14,925 nucleotides of DNA, from the NCBI GenBank assembly GCA_002070755.1, contig MWDY01000036.1, forward strand, positions 1 to 14,925. The letters are read 5' to 3'. The notes below the pieces were generated by a model that was not told the origin of the DNA, made no database searches, and saw nothing but the letters and a program-made list of their open reading frames with translations. Numbering within the stretch: position 1 is the first letter of the stretch; each line of letters starts with the position of its first letter. Source of the DNA: Spirochaetes bacterium ADurb.Bin110. Its GTDB lineage: Bacteria > Spirochaetota > Spirochaetia > Treponematales > Rectinemataceae. A program made the position numbers and the translations under genes. Of this stretch, positions 555-13,514 are shown in pieces.

Positions 555-562
555 TATGATTT

Positions 563-612
563 AAGTCTTTGAAATACAAAGACTTATGCTTCAACCGAAA
601 AATCGGAGAAGC
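563..612 (+). other. Twin hairpins at the left end of the island
   Basis: AAGTCTTTG (563-571) and CAAAGACTT (577-585) form a perfect 9-bp inverted repeat with a 5-nt loop. It is followed by a second nested stem: GCTTC (588-592) with GAAGC (608-612) around CCGA/TCGG. The first hairpin is conserved at 6472-6494 in the junction copy. Possible roles are a recombination accessory site or a replacement terminator for the tRNA transcript, since the natural downstream sequence was displaced to 13501. Confidence 0.5.
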
Positions 613-627
613 ACCTTATTTATCCAA

Positions 628-647
628 AGTCACACGAATAGTCACAG
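628..647 (+). repeat. Paired AGTCACA motif, left end
   Basis: AGTCACAC (628-635) and AGTCACAG (640-647) are direct repeats with a 12-bp period. The same pair, in the same orientation and with the same period, occurs at 6539-6558 and 13308-13327, and at no other place that I noticed. Its location only at element ends points to arm-type binding sites for the integrase or excisionase. Confidence 0.6.
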
Positions 648-669
648 TTCGTGTGGTAAAGGGGGAGAG

Positions 670-1833
670 GTGCATACTCCGTATTCGCTTTTTACGAGAA
701 CTTCTAAGAAAACCGGCAAGACCAGTTGGTATGCTCGATTCTGGGATGAAGAGGCTCAGCGATTTATTTGTACCCGCGCGCTGCATGTTCCATTTGCGGG
801 GAGAAGAAACGGTCGGGATCTTGCAGCTCAGGCAGCCCAGGCTCTCGTAACAAAAATGAAGAGAGAATCAGACCCTCTACTCGTCGAATTCCTCACTGCT
901 TTTTGGGCACCTGGCAGTAGATACATTCGATCACGCGAAATCGTAGATCAAAAACCGCTTTCTCTCGACTATCTCGACCACAATCGAAGAGCCATACAAC
1001 TATACATTGCACCATACCCGGGTTTTAAAACGCTCCGTCTATCAAAACTCAAAGCTGGAATTGTCAAAGACTGGCAGCTTTGGGCGATGGAACATGGCGC
1101 GACTCCGCGATCCTGCAATATTGCGCTTCAAGCACTCAGAGTACCAATACGAGATGCTGTCATGAGGGGAGAAATACCAGCTGATCCTTTGGCAATCGTA
1201 AAGAAAGTGCCAGAACACCCGCGTGAGCGCGGTGTTCTCTCAATCGCGGAAATTAATGCCCTCATTAAAGCTGATGAGCATGATCCTAGAATCAAAGCAG
1301 CTATATTGCTCGCAACTTTAGGTGGCTTGAGAAGAGGAGAAATCAGAGGCTTGCGCTGGGGAGATATCGATTGGGCTGCGAGTGTCCTTTATGTACGTCA
1401 CAACACTGTGGATCAAGAAAGGGACAAAGCTCCAAAGGCAGGCTCTTTCCGAATAATCCCTATTCATAAATCGGTCCTAGAAGAACTCAAGAGACTTTTC
1501 AGTATTGCTCCATTACAGGGAGATGATGATTTTGTTTTCTTTTCCACAAGTAAATCCAAATCACCAATCACAGGTCGAACTTTGCTTGATGGACTTCACA
1601 GAATGCTCAAGGCTATTGGTATCGATGAAGAAGAAAGAAAGAGAAGGAATTTGAATCTTCACGCAATGAGGCATAGTTTTATAACACTAGCGCGCAATCT
1701 CGGAATGCCTGATATTTCAGTCATGGCATTGAGCGGGCATAAATCACCAGAAATGCTGACGAGGTATAGTCATGGTAATCAAACACTTGATTTTCAAGTA
1801 GTACGATCAAAGATGGAGGGGGCGATTCAATGA
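670..1833 (+). CDS. int: Tyrosine recombinase / integrase
   Basis: A site-specific recombinase of 387 residues that would insert and excise the island at tRNA-Gly. With the GTG at 670 as start, the catalytic set is Arg221 (GGLRRGEI), Lys256 (PKAGSFRIIP), His331-x-x-Arg334 (HAMRH), His357 (SGH) and nucleophile Tyr366 (TRYSH), so the enzyme looks intact. Residues 1-100 have the arm-binding/SAM-like N-terminal pattern with a YARFWD strand. An upstream in-frame ATG at 586 was not chosen: it has no ribosome binding site, lies in the terminal inverted repeat, and its extra residues translate the AGTCACA repeats. GTG 670 has AAGGGGG four bases upstream. The stop overlaps the next start (ATGA). The G-rich ribosome binding site is complementary to the loop of the small RNA at 6268-6355. 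Confidence 0.92.
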   Translation: MHTPYSLFTRTSKKTGKTSWYARFWDEEAQRFICTRALHVPFAGRRNGRDLAAQAAQALVTKMKRESDPLLVEFLTAFWAPGSRYIRSREIVDQKPLSLDYLDHNRRAIQLYIAPYPGFKTLRLSKLKAGIVKDWQLWAMEHGATPRSCNIALQALRVPIRDAVMRGEIPADPLAIVKKVPEHPRERGVLSIAEINALIKADEHDPRIKAAILLATLGGLRRGEIRGLRWGDIDWAASVLYVRHNTVDQERDKAPKAGSFRIIPIHKSVLEELKRLFSIAPLQGDDDFVFFSTSKSKSPITGRTLLDGLHRMLKAIGIDEEERKRRNLNLHAMRHSFITLARNLGMPDISVMALSGHKSPEMLTRYSHGNQTLDFQVVRSKMEGAIQ

Positions 1834-2201
1834 GTGAAAAAGAAAAACAAGAACCAAAATCTATGGGAGAAAAGCTTATAAGCTATATGAAAGGAGAATA
1901 TAAATTTCCTGATTATGAATTTGATGATCTCTATAAGGAAGAACATATAATATATAGAGTACCAGTTTCAACTTTCAAAGAATTACGAAAAAAAGGGTTT
2001 AAAAATAAGACTATTGCAGAAATGTATGGGCTGTCAGAGATGAAGATAAGGAAAATATTAAAAGAGTCGAATGATAATAAAAAATTCGTTGTTCATATTC
2101 ATGAAAGCACACCACTTCAATATTCTGAAATTAGAACTGCAAAGAGAATTACTGATTCATATGGACATGAAATAAACCCTTATGATATTATTGACCTATA
2201 A
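1830..2201 (+). CDS. Small protein with a helix-turn-helix-like segment, unknown
   Basis: A 123-residue basic protein that I do not assign to a family. It starts inside the integrase stop codon (ATGA), with a strong GGAGGGGG seven bases upstream, so the two are probably translated together. Residues about 56-80 (KNKTIAEMYGLSEMKIRKILKE) look like a resolvase/sigma-type helix-turn-helix: a turn between two helices with an A-x-x-Y-G-L core. The gene is clearly more AT-rich than the integrase and has a lysine-rich start. Linkage to int suggests a regulator or a directionality or accessory factor of recombination; that role is inference from position. Confidence 0.7.
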   Translation: MSEKEKQEPKSMGEKLISYMKGEYKFPDYEFDDLYKEEHIIYRVPVSTFKELRKKGFKNKTIAEMYGLSEMKIRKILKESNDNKKFVVHIHESTPLQYSEIRTAKRITDSYGHEINPYDIIDL

Positions 2202-2253
2202 ATACCGCTAGGGAGAACAAGCGTAAGGATAACTGATGCCTGCCCGATGCGGT

Positions 2254-2348
2254 GCCTTGATGCTTCTTGGAGAGTCAAGGCGAGAGGCGACAAGCATGAT
2301 CTGATCGCCGACATCATCTCCTCTGCAAAGAGGGGTGTATTGTCGGAG
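2254..2348 (+). promoter_or_regulatory. Structured leader upstream of the excisionase-like gene
   Basis: GCCTTGA (2254-2260) pairs with TCAAGGC (2275-2281). A second structure pairs CCGACA (2308-2313) with TGTCGG (2341-2346) and encloses a hairpin CCTCT-gcaa-AGAGG (2320-2333). The 3' strand of the outer stem covers the first two bases of the GGAG ribosome binding site (2345-2348), so folding could limit translation of the gene starting at 2356. Seen by eye; no energy was computed. Confidence 0.4.
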
Positions 2349-2355
2349 ACCAGAT

Positions 2356-2556
2356 ATGTATTCTGAAACATCTTCTCGCCGTTTTCTCTCGCGTCAAGAA
2401 GCTGCAAACCAATTAGGTATTAGCCTTCCTACGCTAGCCCGTCGTTTAGCCGATAGATCGATCCCCTATACAAAACTTGGCGGCAGAATATTAATCCCAG
2501 CTGAATTTTTTGAGCAACTCGCAAACAGTGCTCTCTCAAATCAGGGGAGGCAATAA
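2356..2556 (+). CDS. Excisionase-like helix-turn-helix DNA-binding protein
   Basis: A 66-residue protein with the HTH_17/excisionase pattern: FLSRQEAANQLGISLPTLAR (helix-turn-helix, about residues 10-29), then RLADRSIPYTKLGGRILIPAEFFEQL (wing and helix). Such proteins bind near att sites and bias tyrosine integrases towards excision, or regulate early promoters (AlpA-type). The ATG at 2356 is preceded by GGAG with 7-bp spacing; an in-frame GTG at 2335 has no such site. The gene is first in a tight operon with the replication genes and is separated from int by a structured leader of about 150 bp. Whether it is an excisionase, an activator or both cannot be decided from sequence. Confidence 0.8.
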   Translation: MYSETSSRRFLSRQEAANQLGISLPTLARRLADRSIPYTKLGGRILIPAEFFEQLANSALSNQGRQ

Positions 2557-2757
2557 ATGAGCGCGCAGACCGTAAATTCGGACGCGCTCATTAGCGTCCT
2601 CCTTCCAGAACTAAGAAAACTCTGCAGCAACGCTCCTCAATTTGGAGAAATCTCTCTCAGCGCAACAATCCATGATGGTGATGTTGGCCGTATTTCCATA
2701 GGAATCCAAACAACACGAAAAATCGCAACGCCTTCATTGCGTGGAGGAAACCGATGA
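2557..2757 (+). CDS. Small hypothetical protein of the replication operon
   Basis: A 66-residue protein that I do not recognise. Its ATG directly follows the TAA of the excisionase-like gene, with GGGGAGG six bases upstream, and its stop overlaps the next start by 4 bp. It has an N-terminal amphipathic helix (ALISVLLPELRKLCSNA) and a central strand region (ISLSATIHDGDVGRISIGIQTTRK). No membrane segment and no cysteine motif are seen. The tight coupling and good ribosome binding site make it very likely a real gene, but the role is unknown. Confidence 0.65.
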   Translation: MSAQTVNSDALISVLLPELRKLCSNAPQFGEISLSATIHDGDVGRISIGIQTTRKIATPSLRGGNR

Positions 2758-2996
2758 AACGGCATAATCTGCGCAATTGGCTACTTATGACCTGCAAAAT
2801 TGATGGAATAATCGAAATAGGTCTCGGAAACACTATATATTTCTGGCCGTGGAAGTCGCTTTATAAAGGTTACAGCACGGAAAATCATATTGTTGTGAAA
2901 GCCAATGACTTTCGTACTGGTCTTGGGATTCAAAAGCTAACAAATAAGGCAATTCGAGCGTATGCGGCGAAAATGCTTCGGGAGGCGTCACGATGA
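2754..2996 (+). CDS. Small basic hypothetical protein of the replication operon
   Basis: An 80-residue basic protein, unrecognised. It is translationally coupled on both sides (ATGA at 2754 with the previous gene and ATGA at 2993 with the initiator-like gene) and has GGAGG six bases before its start. An aromatic cluster (IYFWPWKSLYKGY) in the middle and a C-terminal lysine/arginine helix (LTNKAIRAYAAKMLREASR) are the visible traits, which would suit a nucleic-acid-binding or adaptor protein. That is only a guess from composition. Confidence 0.65.
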   Translation: MKRHNLRNWLLMTCKIDGIIEIGLGNTIYFWPWKSLYKGYSTENHIVVKANDFRTGLGIQKLTNKAIRAYAAKMLREASR

Positions 2997-3817
2997 AAAG
3001 CGACGTCTTCGCACGAGTACCAATTGCTGTATTGGAAGATAGCAGACTCTCTTCAATTGAAAAAATAACGCTAATTGTCTTGCTCTCATTCATAATCGGT
3101 TCAAAAAATGAATGTTGGCCTTCTCTGTCAAAAATCGCTCACCGCGCGAGTATTACAAGGCGAAGCGTGATCCGCGCACTTAATATGCTCGAGAGAAAAA
3201 AAATTATCACACGCACCAGACGGCGAGAGAATGGAACTTCTGAACCAACTTCCACCCTTTATCGATTAGCTGGTGACTATATTTCACTAGGTAGTGACAC
3301 TATGTCACTAGAGGTAGTGACAGAATGTCACCTAGGTAGTGACACTATGTCACCCGAATTAGATAATAGAATAAGAAAAGAATCTACAGCTTCGCTGTCG
3401 GGCCAAAAGAAAAAGGTACTCCCTGAAATCGTCCTCGAAATTGAAAAAATACTAAAAGCCGAATGCGATCATCGCGGCATTACTTGGGAATATGCGAAGG
3501 AATGGAAAAGCATCGAAAGCCTTGCCAGTCTAATAACAGACCATGCCACGCTTCTCTCTCTTTCCCGTAAATTCATCGAACTCACCAAAGCGCCCTCTGG
3601 CTTCCTTTCGGGCAAGCCCCCCACCGCAAGTCTTCTCAAATCCTGCCTGGCCACGGTCGAAGCCTCCATGCCCAAATCATCTGAACCTCAAAAACTACTC
3701 CGAAAAGCAGTGCAGGCATTTATATGCCCGAAATGCGGTGCGCAGATCATTCAGGGCGACGTCGCCTGCCAAGAATGCGGCACGCTTGTGCAGGAACTTG
3801 AGGAGAAGACGGTATGA
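2993..3817 (+). CDS. Replication initiator-like protein (HTH domain plus zinc ribbon)
   Basis: A 274-residue protein. Residues about 20-92 form a winged-helix domain of the HTH_36/phage replication type (WPSLSKIAHRASITRRSVIR, then ALNMLERKKII as recognition and wing). A low-complexity linker follows (about 98-140), and the C-terminus is a zinc ribbon with Cys245, Cys248, Cys259 and Cys262 (CPKC-x10-CQEC). The linker is encoded by three palindromic iterons, so residues LGSDTMS are repeated. This matches the arrangement of lambda O and related initiators, where the origin lies within the initiator gene and the protein brings in the helicase. GGAGG stands seven bases before the ATG, and the stop overlaps the helicase start. 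Initiator function is inferred from this architecture. Confidence 0.78.
   Translation: MKSDVFARVPIAVLEDSRLSSIEKITLIVLLSFIIGSKNECWPSLSKIAHRASITRRSVIRALNMLERKKIITRTRRRENGTSEPTSTLYRLAGDYISLGSDTMSLEVVTECHLGSDTMSPELDNRIRKESTASLSGQKKKVLPEIVLEIEKILKAECDHRGITWEYAKEWKSIESLASLITDHATLLSLSRKFIELTKAPSGFLSGKPPTASLLKSCLATVEASMPKSSEPQKLLRKAVQAFICPKCGAQIIQGDVACQECGTLVQELEEKTV
3289..3353 (+). repeat. Three palindromic iterons: candidate replication origin
   Basis: The 20-bp unit aggtagtgacactatgtcac occurs at 3289-3308, 3312-3331 (three middle bases changed) and 3334-3353. Each contains a perfect palindrome GTGACA-N3-TGTCAC (3294-3308, 3317-3331, 3339-3353). Centres are 22-23 bp apart, about two helical turns, so bound proteins would line up on one face. 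An A-rich stretch at 3357-3385 follows directly and could be the unwinding element. Position inside the initiator gene resembles the lambda O/ori arrangement. Confidence 0.7.
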
Positions 3818-5058
3818 AAAAGGACTATTACGCATACGAGACCGCACTGCTTGGGCAAGTCTTGAACATACCTTCTATCATCGAAGAGCACTCGATTAGC
3901 GCGGAGCTCTTCGAAGACCGAAATTATCGAACGATCTTCGAAGCAGTCCAGAGAGCGCGTAATAAGGGGCTTAAACCGGACCTGCTCACGATTGGAGAAG
4001 AATTGCGAACCGTAGGGCGTGAAGACCTTGCCGTCGCGCTCGCTGGCATTGAGCCGCTATCCGCCGCGAACGCACAATTCTACACGGAACAGCTCAGGGA
4101 ACGCCTCAGATCGTACAACTTGAGCTTGAGCCTTTCCTATGCAAAGGAGCTTCTCGAACGCGGCGAACCAACGTTAAGCGTAGTTGAAAATCTTTTCACA
4201 AGCGCAACAGCCGCGATGCAGGCGGCGCCCGAGACGGTAGACAATTCCGCCTCGCGCTTGATTCAAGACTACGGACAAGCACTGCAGGCAAAGATCAAGG
4301 CGCGGAAGGAACGCTCGCTCATTGAAATCGGCTTCGGTGTCAGGGCGCTCGATGCATTTTCAGGCGCGATACACCCCGGCGAAATCGTGATAATCGCCGC
4401 GCGCCCAGGTACGGGTAAGACATCCCTCGCGCTTCAGACCGCGATGCACTGCGCGGGAACGCTGCGGCTTCCTTCAGCATTCTTCTCTTTCGAGATGTTA
4501 AAGAATGAGGTTCTTGATCGGCTTCTGGCACAAAAGGGCGCCGCGATGCTCCGGGATATTCGCGACGGTCGAGTTGACATTGATTCGATCTATACCGCGA
4601 TGGTCGAACTTGGGGAGTTACCGCTTTCAATTTATGACGGGCGGCATGACCTGGGGCTCTTGCGCGCACGTCTTCGCCGCGAGAAGGCGCTTCATAATTT
4701 ACAGGTGGCATTTTTAGACTACATAGGCCTCATTGACGCAGGGATGATGGGCAATGCACCCCGGTGGGAACGTATCGCAGAAATCTCGCGCAGCTTAAAG
4801 CTTCTCGCGCTTGAACTGAAAATCGCCATTTTCATCGTCGCACAATTAAACCGTGATGCGGACGGTACAGAACCCACACTTGGTAACCTTCGCGATTCGG
4901 GCTCACTCGAGCAAGACGCGGACCGTGTGCTTCTTCTATATCGGCCCAATTCCTCGGGTGACGATTCGCGAATAATCGCGCACCTTGCGAAAAATCGACA
5001 CGGGCGAACTGGTCGGTTGGACCTCAACTTCAGTGGTGAGAACGTTAGGTTTTCATAA
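3814..5058 (+). CDS. dnaB: DnaB-family replicative helicase
   Basis: A 414-residue hexameric helicase that would unwind the fork at the island's origin. The N-terminal domain (about 1-100) has the DnaB dimerisation pattern (YETALLGQVLNIP, then FEDRNYRTIFEAV). The RecA-like domain has Walker A RPGTGKTS (residues 197-204), Walker B VAFLDYIGL, sensor AQLNRDADG, the DnaB-specific LRDSGSLEQDADRVLLLYR segment, and the C-terminal arginine region KNRHGRTGRLDLNFSG. It is slightly shorter than chromosomal DnaB (about 450-470), mainly in the linker. Its start overlaps the initiator stop (ATGA), so the two are co-translated. No separate loader gene is visible, so the initiator may load it directly. Typical of phage, satellite and plasmid replication modules. 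Confidence 0.93.
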   Translation: MKKDYYAYETALLGQVLNIPSIIEEHSISAELFEDRNYRTIFEAVQRARNKGLKPDLLTIGEELRTVGREDLAVALAGIEPLSAANAQFYTEQLRERLRSYNLSLSLSYAKELLERGEPTLSVVENLFTSATAAMQAAPETVDNSASRLIQDYGQALQAKIKARKERSLIEIGFGVRALDAFSGAIHPGEIVIIAARPGTGKTSLALQTAMHCAGTLRLPSAFFSFEMLKNEVLDRLLAQKGAAMLRDIRDGRVDIDSIYTAMVELGELPLSIYDGRHDLGLLRARLRREKALHNLQVAFLDYIGLIDAGMMGNAPRWERIAEISRSLKLLALELKIAIFIVAQLNRDADGTEPTLGNLRDSGSLEQDADRVLLLYRPNSSGDDSRIIAHLAKNRHGRTGRLDLNFSGENVRFS

Positions 5059-5314
5059 TTAAAAAGGACATAGGCAGTCATGCATAATCTACGAATAGCG
5101 CCTTTAGAACTAAATTCAATATATCCTGAAAAATTTCAATTTAGATTGGAATAGCGGCAATCCTAATAGCACTAATAAGCATTTTACAAGAGAGCATGAG
5201 ATTTGAGAAATAAAGAACTAGATTCACCTCTAGCACCCTAATATTAGGCTTCATTACCATCATCTTTCAGCCAACTAAAGGATGATCGTGATAATAACAG
5301 CGAAGGGAACAGCG
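5059..5314 (+). other. AT-rich gap after the helicase gene
   Basis: It holds a possible 24-codon reading frame (5080-5154, peptide starting MHNLRIAPLE) with a distant AAAAGGA upstream; I do not regard it as proven. It also holds a perfect 12-bp palindrome, CCTAATATTAGG (5237-5248), about 65 bp before the DUF5681 gene, which could be an operator. No terminator or clear promoter was recognised. Confidence 0.35.
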
Positions 5315-5689
5315 ATGAAGAAGATACCTGAGGGCCGAAGATTTAAACCGGGACAAAGCGGCAATCCTAAAGGAAGACCCAAAAAAGAAAATACTTGGAA
5401 GTACATCCTAAATACATTGCTTTCTTTTGAAGATGTGACGATGCCTGATGGCTCAAAGATTAGTAGGAAGCGAGCAATTGCACTACGCATGGTTCAGGAA
5501 GCATTGAAAGGACGTGTTGATGCCGCGAATCTCATCGTCAAGTACACAGAAAGTCCAGAGCCGATGAAAATAAGTGCTGTGGACACGGAAGGAAGTCCAT
5601 TATCTGGCGCAATATTCATGATGAAAAAGGAGACGCTGGAATCATGGAATAAGCGAATGCAGAATAAAAAAGATAAAAGCAGCCAATAA
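5315..5689 (+). CDS. DUF5681 domain protein, possible small-terminase-like
   Basis: A 124-residue protein opening with the signature RRFKPGQSGNPKGRPKK (residues about 8-24) that defines DUF5681 proteins, common in phages and genomic islands and often next to terminase genes. A predicted helical part follows (RAIALRMVQEALKGRVDAANLIVKY), then a lysine-rich tail. I chose the ATG at 5315 because GAAGGGA lies six bases upstream; an in-frame ATG at 5282 has only badly spaced purines. It is monocistronic, about 250 bp after the helicase gene. A DNA-recognition role in packaging would fit a phage satellite, but the family has no firm function and no large terminase is present. The family call is good; the role is inference. 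Confidence 0.75.
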   Translation: MKKIPEGRRFKPGQSGNPKGRPKKENTWKYILNTLLSFEDVTMPDGSKISRKRAIALRMVQEALKGRVDAANLIVKYTESPEPMKISAVDTEGSPLSGAIFMMKKETLESWNKRMQNKKDKSSQ

Positions 5690-5919
5690 AGCCCTGATGT
5701 CTTGATAGCAATCTCAATATTTCTTTCTGACTTCGATCATTTCAATTATTGACTATTTAATTAACTAAAAGGTAAATATTTTTCATATGACCCTATAATT
5801 ACGAGAATGATCTTTCGCCCAGAAAACAGCCTAAAGTATTGAATGATTATCTATAGAGTTATTACTTACTTGCACACCTTGATTTTATTTTGAGATTACT
5901 ATTAACGCTTGGGAGATAT

Positions 5920-6093
5920 TTATTCAAGCTTGCGGACATCCTTCTTTTTCTTTTCACTCAACCGATCGTCTAGCTTCTCAATCCCTTTGAACGCTTTGCG
6001 GACGAGAACGCCAATAAGCTTTGAGGAGTCCAAAGCCGAGGAATGCGCCGACGGACGTTGAGACAAGACTCGATCCAGCTCCTTCAAAACCAA
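5920..6093 (-). pseudogene. Coding-like relic or small basic protein gene
   Basis: A minus-strand frame of 57 codons begins at TTG 6093 and ends with TAA at 5920-5922. Its peptide contains VLKELDRVLSQRPSAHSSAL and ends in a charged helix KLDDRLSEKKKKDVRKLE. Base composition is richer in G+C than the surrounding intergenic DNA, and an in-frame stop stands three codons before the TTG. No good ribosome binding site is seen. It looks like the surviving C-terminal part of a gene, although a short protein from TTG is possible. The family is not recognised. Confidence 0.35.
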
Positions 6094-6267
6094 ATCCCAT
6101 TTTTAAGCCTGCGAAATCATTCTTGTCTTAAGTTTTTAATAGCCCGAGAACTTTACAACCCTGTTTGAACGACTATTTTTGTTAACAAACCGCTCATTAC
6201 CACTTACTCAAAAAGAATTAAGAGTCAAAAACTCTGCTTCCATTAAACTGCATATTTCAAATCATTC

Positions 6268-6355
6268 AAAAAACAAATCCGCTGGCTGGTCCTCCGAGTT
6301 TAGGCCCTCAGACCACTTACGACCAAGAAGGGGGATTCTCTTGGTCCCAGCGGAT
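6268..6355 (-). ncRNA. Candidate structured small RNA, three-way junction with C-rich loop
   Basis: On the minus strand the RNA would start at about 6355, exactly at the outer stem, because the extended -10 at 6362-6370 places +1 there. Stem P1 pairs AUCCGCUGG (6355-6347) with CCAGCGGAU (6285-6277), 9 bp. Arm P3 is GACCAAGA/UCUUGGUC (6346-6339 with 6328-6321), 8 bp closing the loop GAAUCCCCCU. Arm P2 is UGGUC/GACCA (6315-6311 with 6291-6287) with an internal GAG/CUC. A U-rich tract UUUGUUUUUU (6277-6268) follows P1. The exposed C5 loop resembles loops of small RNAs that cover ribosome binding sites; its complement AAGGGGGA is the ribosome binding site of int (659-666). No known RNA family was recognised. 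Expression is unproven. Confidence 0.5.
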
Positions 6356-6361
6356 ACTTTA

Positions 6362-6388
6362 AGTATACCATTGATTTAATTTTTGCAA
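6362..6388 (-). promoter_or_regulatory. Extended -10 promoter of the small RNA
   Basis: Read on the minus strand: TGG followed by TATACT (6370 down to 6362), an extended -10 box, with TTGCAA (6388-6383) 15 bp upstream as a short-spaced -35. The predicted start at about 6355 coincides with the first base of the RNA's outer stem, which supports the assignment. Confidence 0.5.
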
Positions 6389-6417
6389 GCTTAATTTATT
6401 TTAAAATAACAATATAA

Positions 6418-6558
6418 CGAGCTTGCTAGGCTCGTGAACCAAGCAGAAGGGTTGCCGACTACTCAAGGATAAAGTCTTTGTAAAGCAAAGAGTTATGTTT
6501 CGGCTGCAATACTGGATAACCTGTTCATTTTTTTCAAAAGTCACATGAAAAGTCACAT
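6418..6558 (+). other. Diverged copy of the island's left end (internal att-like junction)
   Basis: CGAGC-TTGCTAG-GCTCG (6418-6434) keeps the stem and 7-nt loop form of the tRNA anticodon arm at 509-525 and matches the first 21 bases of the 46-bp core at 18 positions; the rest of the core is lost. An inverted repeat AAGTCTTTG/CAAAGAGTT (6472-6494) starts 54 bp after the core start, exactly as at 563 versus 509. Paired AGTCACAT motifs (6539-6546, 6551-6558) follow, 121 bp from the core start versus 119 bp at the left end. The order, spacing and sequence show common origin. No integrase remnant follows it. Confidence 0.65.
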
Positions 6559-6638
6559 TTTTACTGTTATAAGGCTTTCTGAAGCAGCTGCCTTCATATG
6601 AAAAGCTTCTTTCTTACATATCAATCACAAAGCGACTA

Positions 6639-6647
6639 TGGTATAAT
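6639..6647 (+). promoter_or_regulatory. Extended -10 promoter of the hsd operon
   Basis: TGGTATAAT (6639-6647) is a perfect extended -10 box, 46 bp before the hsdM ATG. No good -35 was seen at 16-18 bp spacing. The hsdM ribosome binding site AAGGAG (6679-6684) has 8-bp spacing. Probably drives hsdM-hsdS-hsdR as one transcript. Confidence 0.5.
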
Positions 6648-6692
6648 TCAACAAAGTATCACAAACCACTTCAGAATCAAGGAGCTTGCTGC

Positions 6693-8254
6693 ATGGACAA
6701 TAAAAAAGAACAGGAACGCGCTGAACTCCATCGCACCATCTGGAACATCGCCAACGATCTGCGAGGCAGTGTTGATGGCTGGGATTTCAAGCAGTACGTT
6801 CTCGGAATCCTGTTCTATCGCTACATATCAGAAAACATTACCGCGTATATTAACAAAAGCGAGCACGAAGCCGGTAACGCTGGATTCGATTATGCCCGGC
6901 TCTCCGACAGCGAAGCAGAACAGGCTCGCGAAGATCTTGTACAAACCAAAGGTTTCTTTATCCTGCCGAGCGAACTTTTCGAGAATGTCCGCGCTCGCGC
7001 AAAACAAGACGAAAATCTAAACGAAACTCTCGAACATGTCTTCAAGAATATCGAAGCTTCAGCCCAGGGCAGCGAGAGCGAGGACGATTTCAAAGGCCTC
7101 TTTGATGATATCGATGTCAACAGCAACAAGCTGGGGCCGACAGTTGTAAAGCGCAACGAAAAGCTGGTTAAACTGCTCGATGCCGTGGGGGATATGAAAC
7201 TCGGCAATTATCAGGACAACAACATTGACGCGTTCGGCGATGCCTACGAGTTCTTGATGAGCATGTACGCTTCCAACGCCGGCAAATCAGGCGGTGAGTT
7301 TTTCACTCCACAAGAAGTCTCAGAACTTTTAACCCGCCTTGCCCTGGTGGGCAAAACCGAGGTCAACAAGGTTTACGACCCCGCCTGCGGTTCAGGCTCC
7401 TTGCTTCTGAAATTCGCCAAGATTCTGGGTAAGGACAAGGTCCGCCTGGGGTTTTTCGGTCAGGAAATCAACATCACCACTTACAATCTTTGCCGTATCA
7501 ACATGTTCCTGCATGATATCGATTATGACAAATTCGATATTGCGTTGGGCGACACGTTGACTGACCCGAAGCACTGGGACGAAGAGCCTTTTGAAGCCAT
7601 TGTTTCCAACCCGCCATATTCCATCAAGTGGAAGGGTGACAGCGATCCGGTACTCATTAATGATCCTCGCTTCTCCCCGGCAGGTGTGCTGGCACCCAAA
7701 TCCAAAGCGGATCTTGCCTTCATCATGCACAGCCTTTCGTGGCTCGCGACCAATGGAACAGCTGCCATCGTTTGTTTCCCGGGTGTGATGTACCGAGGCG
7801 GGGCCGAGCAGAAAATCCGGCAGTATCTTATTGACAACAACTATATCGATTGCATCATCCAGTTGCCGGACAACTTGTTTTTCGGCACGAGCATCGCCAC
7901 CTGTATCATGGTGCTGAAAAAATCAAAGGCAGACAATAGCACACTCTTCATTGATGCATCGAAGGAATTTGTCAAAGTTACAAACAACAACAAGCTCACA
8001 CAGAAAAATATCGAAACCATTGTAGCAGCCTTTGCAGAGCGGAAGGATATCCAGCATTTCTGCACGCTTGTGCCGAATTCAGCCATTGCTGCAAAAGAAT
8101 ACAATCTCTCCGTTTCCACCTATGTCGAACAGAAGGATACGCGGGAGGTTGTCGACATTGTACAGCTCAATGCCGAAATTGAACAGATTGTAGCGCGGGA
8201 GCAGGTTTTGCGCGAAGAGATTGCGAAAATCATAGCGGACATTGAGGGTGGAAA

Positions 8255-8258: not shown

Positions 8259-9435
<1,177 letters not shown>

Positions 9436-13247: not shown

Positions 13248-13307
13248 CACTATTCGAAAATAGATTAGTTCTTCCAACTTCATAGTTTTTATAATGCTCT
13301 TCAAAAA

Positions 13308-13327
13308 AGTCACACAAAAAGTCACAC
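13308..13327 (+). repeat. Paired AGTCACAC motif, right end
   Basis: AGTCACAC at 13308-13315 and 13320-13327, both exact, with a 12-bp period and the same orientation as the left-end and junction pairs. It lies about 130 bp inside the right att core. A probable arm-type recombination site. Confidence 0.6.
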
Positions 13328-13454: not shown

Positions 13455-13500
13455 CGAGCTTCCCAAGCTCGTGAAGCGGGTTCGACTCCCGTCGGTCGCT
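13455..13500 (+). repeat. attR core: 46-bp repeat of the tRNA-Gly 3' half
   Basis: Exact 46-bp copy of 509-554. The upstream bases do not continue the tRNA (no D arm or 5' acceptor strand), so this is the displaced 3' fragment left by integration and not a functional tRNA. The island ends at 13500. Confidence 0.88.
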
Positions 13501-13514
13501 AAAAGAATTCTTTT
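13501..13514. terminator. Perfect palindrome directly after the tRNA 3' fragment
   Basis: AAAAGAATTCTTTT begins at the base after attR. Before integration it would have followed the tRNA-Gly gene directly, so it may be part of that gene's original terminator. The stem is weak (A/T-rich), so confidence is modest. Confidence 0.3.

Follow-up and report, generated by a model that had tools for sequence, protein, structure and literature searches.

The window, by which we mean the whole stretch of 14,925 nucleotides analysed here, carries an integrative element that is inserted in a tRNA-Gly(CCC) gene (484-554) and bounded by a perfect 46-bp direct repeat, whose aligned copies lie at 509-554 and 13456-13501. 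The left part of the element codes for an integrase, orf123, a small helix-turn-helix protein, a phage O-like replication initiator, a DnaB helicase and a DUF5681 protein, and the right part carries a type I restriction system. Several features of a satellite-type context are present, namely the integrase, the replication module and the direct repeats at a tRNA gene; no capsid family was detected in a selection of the element's frames (10 compared with Pfam and 10 with PHROGs). Named relatives of the DnaB helicase and the integrase include spirochaete records (P0015, P0148), so that a spirochaete is the likely host. The tyrosine integrase (387 aa; plus strand, 670-1833) begins with a GTG at 670, and 23 of 25 aligned relatives start at the same column. 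Its stop codon is overlapped by the ATG of orf123 (plus strand, 1830-2201), an orphan protein whose gene has 28% GC against 45% across 555-6417. Weak matches link orf123 to phage terminase-small-subunit, late-activator and helix-turn-helix families, its structure model is of low confidence (mean pLDDT 48.6), and a search for its relatives among 3 candidates returned only orf123 itself.

Certain other features of the element deserve description in their own right. Within the replication-initiator gene, GTGACAnnATGTCAC repeats occur at 3273-3353 in three perfect copies and one imperfect copy; by sequence they resemble the iterons of an origin located within an O-like gene, as in lambda. The segment 6406-6644 aligns to 495-732 with a score of 133, the highest among 200 shuffles being 71.5, and looks like a degenerate third attachment region, such that the window would consist of two tandem elements, the second of which looks like a restriction cassette devoid of an integrase. 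When 6380-6700 was aligned to the right end instead, the score of 81 did not exceed that of shuffles (up to 90.5). Pairs of AAAGTCACA set 12 bp apart adjoin all three attachment regions (626-646, 6537-6557 and 13306-13326, one copy with a mismatch) and are probably integrase arm sites. In the restriction system, the middle of HsdS displays four tandem ELTA (TAEL-type) repeats (8780-8827) and HsdR carries the EcoR124_C domain; in EcoR124-type enzymes, specificity changes with repeat number. Among the matches listed, a stretch near 8735-8827 shows 84-90% identity to enterobacterial HsdS genes, and the near DNA matches listed from plasmids and phages are restriction-subunit S pieces amounting to about 1% of the query. 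A perfect extended -10 box, TGGTATAAT, precedes hsdM at 6639-6647, in surroundings that resemble those of the small RNA promoter described below.

The locus of principal interest is a GC-rich island within AT-rich noncoding DNA, with 58% GC in 6277-6355 compared with 32% in 6100-6276 and 16% in 6356-6417. The first-pass annotation had proposed that its minus strand encodes a small RNA, and each structural component of that proposal is borne out. An extended -10 box, TGGTATACT, lies at 6370-6362 and has no second copy on the minus strand; no good -35 element is seen, and the seventh base past the -10 hexamer is A6355, the expected RNA start. The -10 box and the start point are spanned by a perfect inverted repeat, ATACTT-T-AAGTAT (6354-6366), of which the window holds no other copy with fewer than three mismatches and which is a possible operator. 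The candidate RNA of 88 nt (6268-6355, minus strand) is predicted to fold, over a body at 6277-6355, into a three-way junction. This comprises an outer stem of nine Watson-Crick pairs (6355-6347/6285-6277), a first arm of eight pairs plus a closing G-U (6346-6338/6329-6321) and a second arm of five pairs and a G-U, plus a 3-bp tip (6315-6310/6292-6287). The first arm ends in the loop GAAUCCCCCU (6329-6338), the outer G and U of which may wobble-pair, leaving eight inner bases open; its five Cs have predicted unpaired probabilities of 0.91-1.0. The 3' strand of the outer stem runs into a U-rich, terminator-like tail, UUUGUUUUUU (6268-6276), whose first U still lies within that stem. The minimum free energy is -38.1 kcal/mol as against -27.5 (sd 3.5) for shuffled sequences, giving a z-score of -3.03, with 1 of 200 shuffles folding as well. 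The sequence gives good support to a separate structured RNA that has its own promoter, bears a C-rich loop and ends in a U-rich tail.

One alternative is that these signals arose by chance, in a decayed intergenic stretch that mimics an RNA gene. We searched for a loose unit composed of an extended -10 box, a closing stem of 8 bp or longer and six or more Ts in ten, and found it at one place in the window, the small RNA locus itself. Such looser units also turned up in 47 of 400 shuffled windows; against this, 2000 further shuffled windows yielded 181 of them and none that matched the real fold energy per nucleotide, a figure that is not a formal probability, as the unit was defined from the case itself after it had been seen and shuffling in 500-nt blocks diluted the local GC content. 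Read in this way, the absence of an equal in 2000 shuffles is strong evidence for the combination of promoter, stem and U-run. Two broader surveys are less distinctive. In a GC-corrected fold landscape of 2968 windows of 90 nt, windows from three other places outrank the small RNA, which stands 13th. A generic promoter and terminator scan lists neither its promoter nor its terminator; the promoter-like site that it does report on the minus strand lies at 6438-6411 (3 such sites overall, where 2.6 are expected). A known Rfam RNA was rejected as the identity of the locus: no family reaches its gathering cut-off, the sole match across the whole window is the tRNA, and a search of 6050-6650 at E-values up to 10 gave three matches far below cut-off, none overlapping the small RNA.

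Alternatively, the palindromes might work as DNA, in the form of a cruciform, an operator or an excision or replication site. The perfect inverted repeats do adjoin the attachment-site relic, and one palindrome spans the start point; however, the promoter and the U-run are in register with the minus-strand fold and the plus strand lacks a U-run after the stem. As an origin of replication the locus was discarded, the GTGACAnnATGTCAC repeats at 3273-3353 being the better candidate. We regard a role as DNA as improbable, and a chance origin, which is also favored by the want of a credible homologue in the collections searched, as somewhat less improbable but still a minor contender. We consider it likely that the minus-strand 88-nt locus is a genuine small RNA gene of the mobile element, a satellite-like one residing in tRNA-Gly(CCC). 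From the sequence signals we infer that transcription would start at the extended -10 promoter, and the resulting 88-nt RNA would fold as a three-way junction and stop at the U-run.

Searches for homologues of the small RNA were carried out at several levels of stringency. The exact loop-and-stem pattern is absent from the viral contigs, and a looser pattern occurs in 6 of them, none of which has a relative of nine window proteins or a covariance-model match. With blastn, 5 phage and 7 plasmid records were recovered by pieces covering 16-29% of the query, and among 392 genomes of the phylum 31 gave pieces of 19-44 bases only. A covariance model built from the one small RNA sequence found the window alone in a set of 45 sources, one match with an E-value of 4.5 in 70 sources (30 of 80 genome loci and 40 of 80 viral loci), and a single match of 19.7 bits (E 0.098), with broken pairs in the alignment, in 30 integrase-bearing genomes. 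In 378 genomes of the class the model gave two matches. The better of these scores 30 bits, with a single-genome E-value of 7.3e-5, equivalent to about 0.03 across the 378, and lies inside a 232-aa open frame on the opposite strand, with several broken pairs and no U-run; it is probably a chance match and was set aside. The second (22.3 bits, E 0.0104) is a partial alignment only. No credible homologue was thus obtained from the parts searched of the viral, phage, plasmid and genome collections, and among the titles and abstract openings listed from the literature, in several cases a short part of long results (12 of 3,809 and 5 of 13,331, for example), none dealt with a small RNA from this element or from a satellite of spirochaetes. 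The missing homologue says little, because the DNA of close relatives of the element lay outside the search, the collections having yielded only distant ones.

Close relatives of the element's proteins do exist: in the protein collection, they reach up to 79% over full length for DnaB and up to 94-95% for the integrase. The loci recovered as DNA are more distant. A single-sequence search with DnaB recovered nothing from viral contigs, and an E-value limit of 1e-60 left none of 390 genomes of one order; alignment scans gave, for the best 80 loci in each case, full-length matches of 27-34% with short pieces to 41% in genomes, and 26-37% in viral contigs. Distant integrases were seen at 5 viral loci (34-38%), in 9 of 394 genomes of the class (at most 43%), among which are all the positive genomes of one family (3 of 26), and in 24 of the 380 genomes searched from that order (at most 45%). 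Extension was carried out at six of the integrase places and was cut short by a contig end at two. Across 11 loci that were compared, the helix-turn-helix protein was matched in 4 and a 66-aa frame in 2, DnaB, DUF5681 and orf123 had no match at an E-value of 0.01, and a tRNA lay nearby in 5 (four Leu, one Met). These integrase loci are too distant to test the small RNA. The arm-site pattern was found in 7 viral contigs, none with a protein relative, and the iteron pattern in no viral contig; DUF5681 was not found in phages, and plasmid records found with DnaB and integrase remained below 60%.

The exposed loop GAAUCCCCCU could act in trans by covering Shine-Dalgarno sequences. Given a real RNA, we regard base pairing by the loop as the likeliest mechanism, at about even odds. 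The first-pass annotation had favored the integrase as the target, with the RNA covering its ribosome-binding site and keeping the integrated element silent. The 8-nt perfect loop complement, AAGGGGGA, is indeed located at 659-666 on the plus strand, just before GTG 670, and occurs elsewhere on that strand only at 6328, as the small RNA's own complement. It is probably the integrase ribosome-binding site, because 23 of the 25 relatives start at the GTG column. However, the pairing itself has little to distinguish it. It scores -5.9 kcal/mol after opening costs. Of 900 background sites, which are predicted ribosome-binding sites from loci retrieved for comparison, 34 pair as well at the site itself and 54 do so when the whole segment is considered; it stands 21st among the places listed from 652 window segments. 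The site is predicted to be largely paired in its own leader, with a mean unpaired probability of 0.15. Cofolding with the small RNA brought a gain of 0.0, a value reached or undercut by 97 of 99 random segments, in a method that considers nested pairing only and to which loop-to-loop pairing is invisible. Repression of the integrase thus finds no specific support, and as the main target it was rejected; we hold it improbable both as a model of the silent element and, granted loop pairing, as a main target. The integrase leader (586-700) folds over its own ribosome-binding site with a z-score of -3.22 (0 of 200 shuffles), a predicted structure by which the integrase is possibly self-limiting.

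A better-placed partner within the element is the Shine-Dalgarno region of orf123, TGGAGGGGGCGATTCA (1814-1829, plus strand), which includes GGAGGGGG at 1815-1822 and extends to the base preceding ATG 1830. The suggestion that this next gene's site shares AGGGGG with the integrase site holds, but the pairing is longer than AGGGGG, and orf123 is a better partner than int: the loop and upper stem of the small RNA meet AGGGGG-(C)-GAUUC with one bulged base. The energy is about -9.8 kcal/mol, equalled by 6 of the 900 background sites, and the site is predicted to be mostly open (0.65-0.71 unpaired). It is 4th among places listed from the 652 segments, and the three ahead of it, which do not lie at tested starts, are about equal or slightly lower in energy. 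Cofolding of orf123 with the small RNA was matched by 4 of 100 random segments, and the lowest of 120 random window segments reached -10.5 as compared with -9.7 for orf123. GGGGG is itself a frequent motif: of 1366 predicted ribosome-binding sites 91 contain it, as do 13 of the 180 in a mostly spirochaete subset. The evidence for orf123 is no more than suggestive, because 12 gene starts were tried, for which about 0.08 chance sites as good would be expected. Thus, the loop complements both the int and the orf123 sites, and solely the latter stands out from background, suggesting from sequence comparison that orf123 is the best in-element candidate and the integrase a weak one.

We propose that orf123, translated from the int operon, is the likeliest target within the element, that the loop and stem top would pair with it from the Shine-Dalgarno sequence to near the ATG, and that the integrase would be a secondary target at most. 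The leading prediction is accordingly of orf123 pairing rather than int pairing. Granted that the loop pairs, orf123 as a main target is a tentative assignment that may well prove wrong. The composite reading, of a real RNA that acts by loop pairing and has orf123 as its leading candidate, is possible rather than probable; it overlaps some of the alternatives, so that our estimates for them do not sum to one. Among these is a real RNA whose target lies outside the element, in a helper phage or a host mRNA. The suggestive status of the in-element targets leaves room for it, and PLE satellites are reported to manipulate gene expression of the invading phage (PMC7567579). We consider this option plausible, although unlikely, and under it the locus would be one more orphan small RNA.

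A further structured region raises the question of a second regulatory RNA. This is the replication-operon leader (2202-2355), located downstream of orf123 and ahead of the helix-turn-helix gene; its fold has a z-score of -4.17, none of 200 shuffles folding as well. It is preceded by a promoter-like TGGACA-18-TATTAT with the TG of an extended -10 (2 sites found against 0.9 expected), and the whole region spans 2162-2358. The start codon of the helix-turn-helix gene at 2356 is predicted to be paired (0.06 unpaired) and its Shine-Dalgarno sequence partly so (0.41). Rfam gave no match to the leader up to an E-value of 5, and a search of phages gave no DNA match. From its modelled fold, 2202-2355 may be a second structured RNA controlling the replication operon. 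These properties favor a scheme in which the small RNA and the leader (about 2198-2355) form a two-RNA replication control, as P4 CI pairs with leader sites to shut off the operon. Their cofolding energy of -5.4 kcal/mol points the same way but is weak, being reached by 8 of 100 random segments; moreover, the pairing sites listed from the 652-segment accessibility scan include none within the leader, and the start of the following gene gave no pairing. A P4 CI-type layout, with the RNA beside the replication leader and complementary to it, is not what is seen here, with no long antisense match listed and the cofolding figure as given. We rate such two-RNA control as unlikely. More speculative still, and in our estimation rather remote, is a satellite run largely by RNA, in which the C-rich-loop RNA and the structured leader, both transcribed from extended -10 promoters of their own, would jointly decide between integration and replication, with orf123 as the regulator under control.

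RNA regulators have already been described for some phage satellites and islands, namely P4, PLE and SGI1 (PMC4825925, PMC7567579, PMC9299015). The likeness to the P4 CI RNA drawn in the first-pass annotation holds loosely, insofar as an element-encoded RNA is predicted to pair on, and control, its own element. It does not extend to the mechanism: the CI RNA is cut out of a longer transcript, and by pairing with the flanking seqA and seqC it terminates transcription (PMC4825925), whereas the candidate has its own predicted promoter and lies about 3.9 kb from the replication leader at 2202-2355. The resemblance to Salmonella genomic island 1 (SGI1) is that of an integrative island with its own small RNA, here a candidate; the sgm-sRNA of SGI1 is reported to be needed for transfer (PMC9299015). 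In PLE satellites of Vibrio cholerae, the noncoding IIR RNA, which is flanked by inverted repeats and outnumbers every other PLE transcript, has antisense homology to the leaders of several of the element's own genes, and PLEs also have transcribed 5' UTRs of about 150-200 bp (PMC7567579). The candidate would likewise be a noncoding RNA of a satellite-like element, and its loop complements sites in the leaders of two of the element's genes, of which only that of orf123 exceeds background; in contrast to the IIR RNA, this predicted complementarity resides in one loop. A parallel in mode of action is offered by the C-rich-loop small RNAs, such as Staphylococcus aureus RNAIII and the UCCC group, in which an unpaired C-rich hairpin loop binds a G-rich Shine-Dalgarno sequence (PMC2837412). 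The candidate similarly has a C-rich motif in a predicted unpaired loop and a G-rich putative Shine-Dalgarno partner; however, it belongs to another host and would act on a mobile-element gene, any repression by it is a prediction and the likeness is one of loop and partner. If the proposal is true, a small RNA together with a structured leader in a probable spirochaete element would extend the range of RNA-regulated satellites and provide a small testable circuit. By its presumed working the candidate resembles both the C-rich-loop RNAs and the PLE RNA, an analogy that does not establish membership in either, and it is probably a small RNA of an already known general kind.
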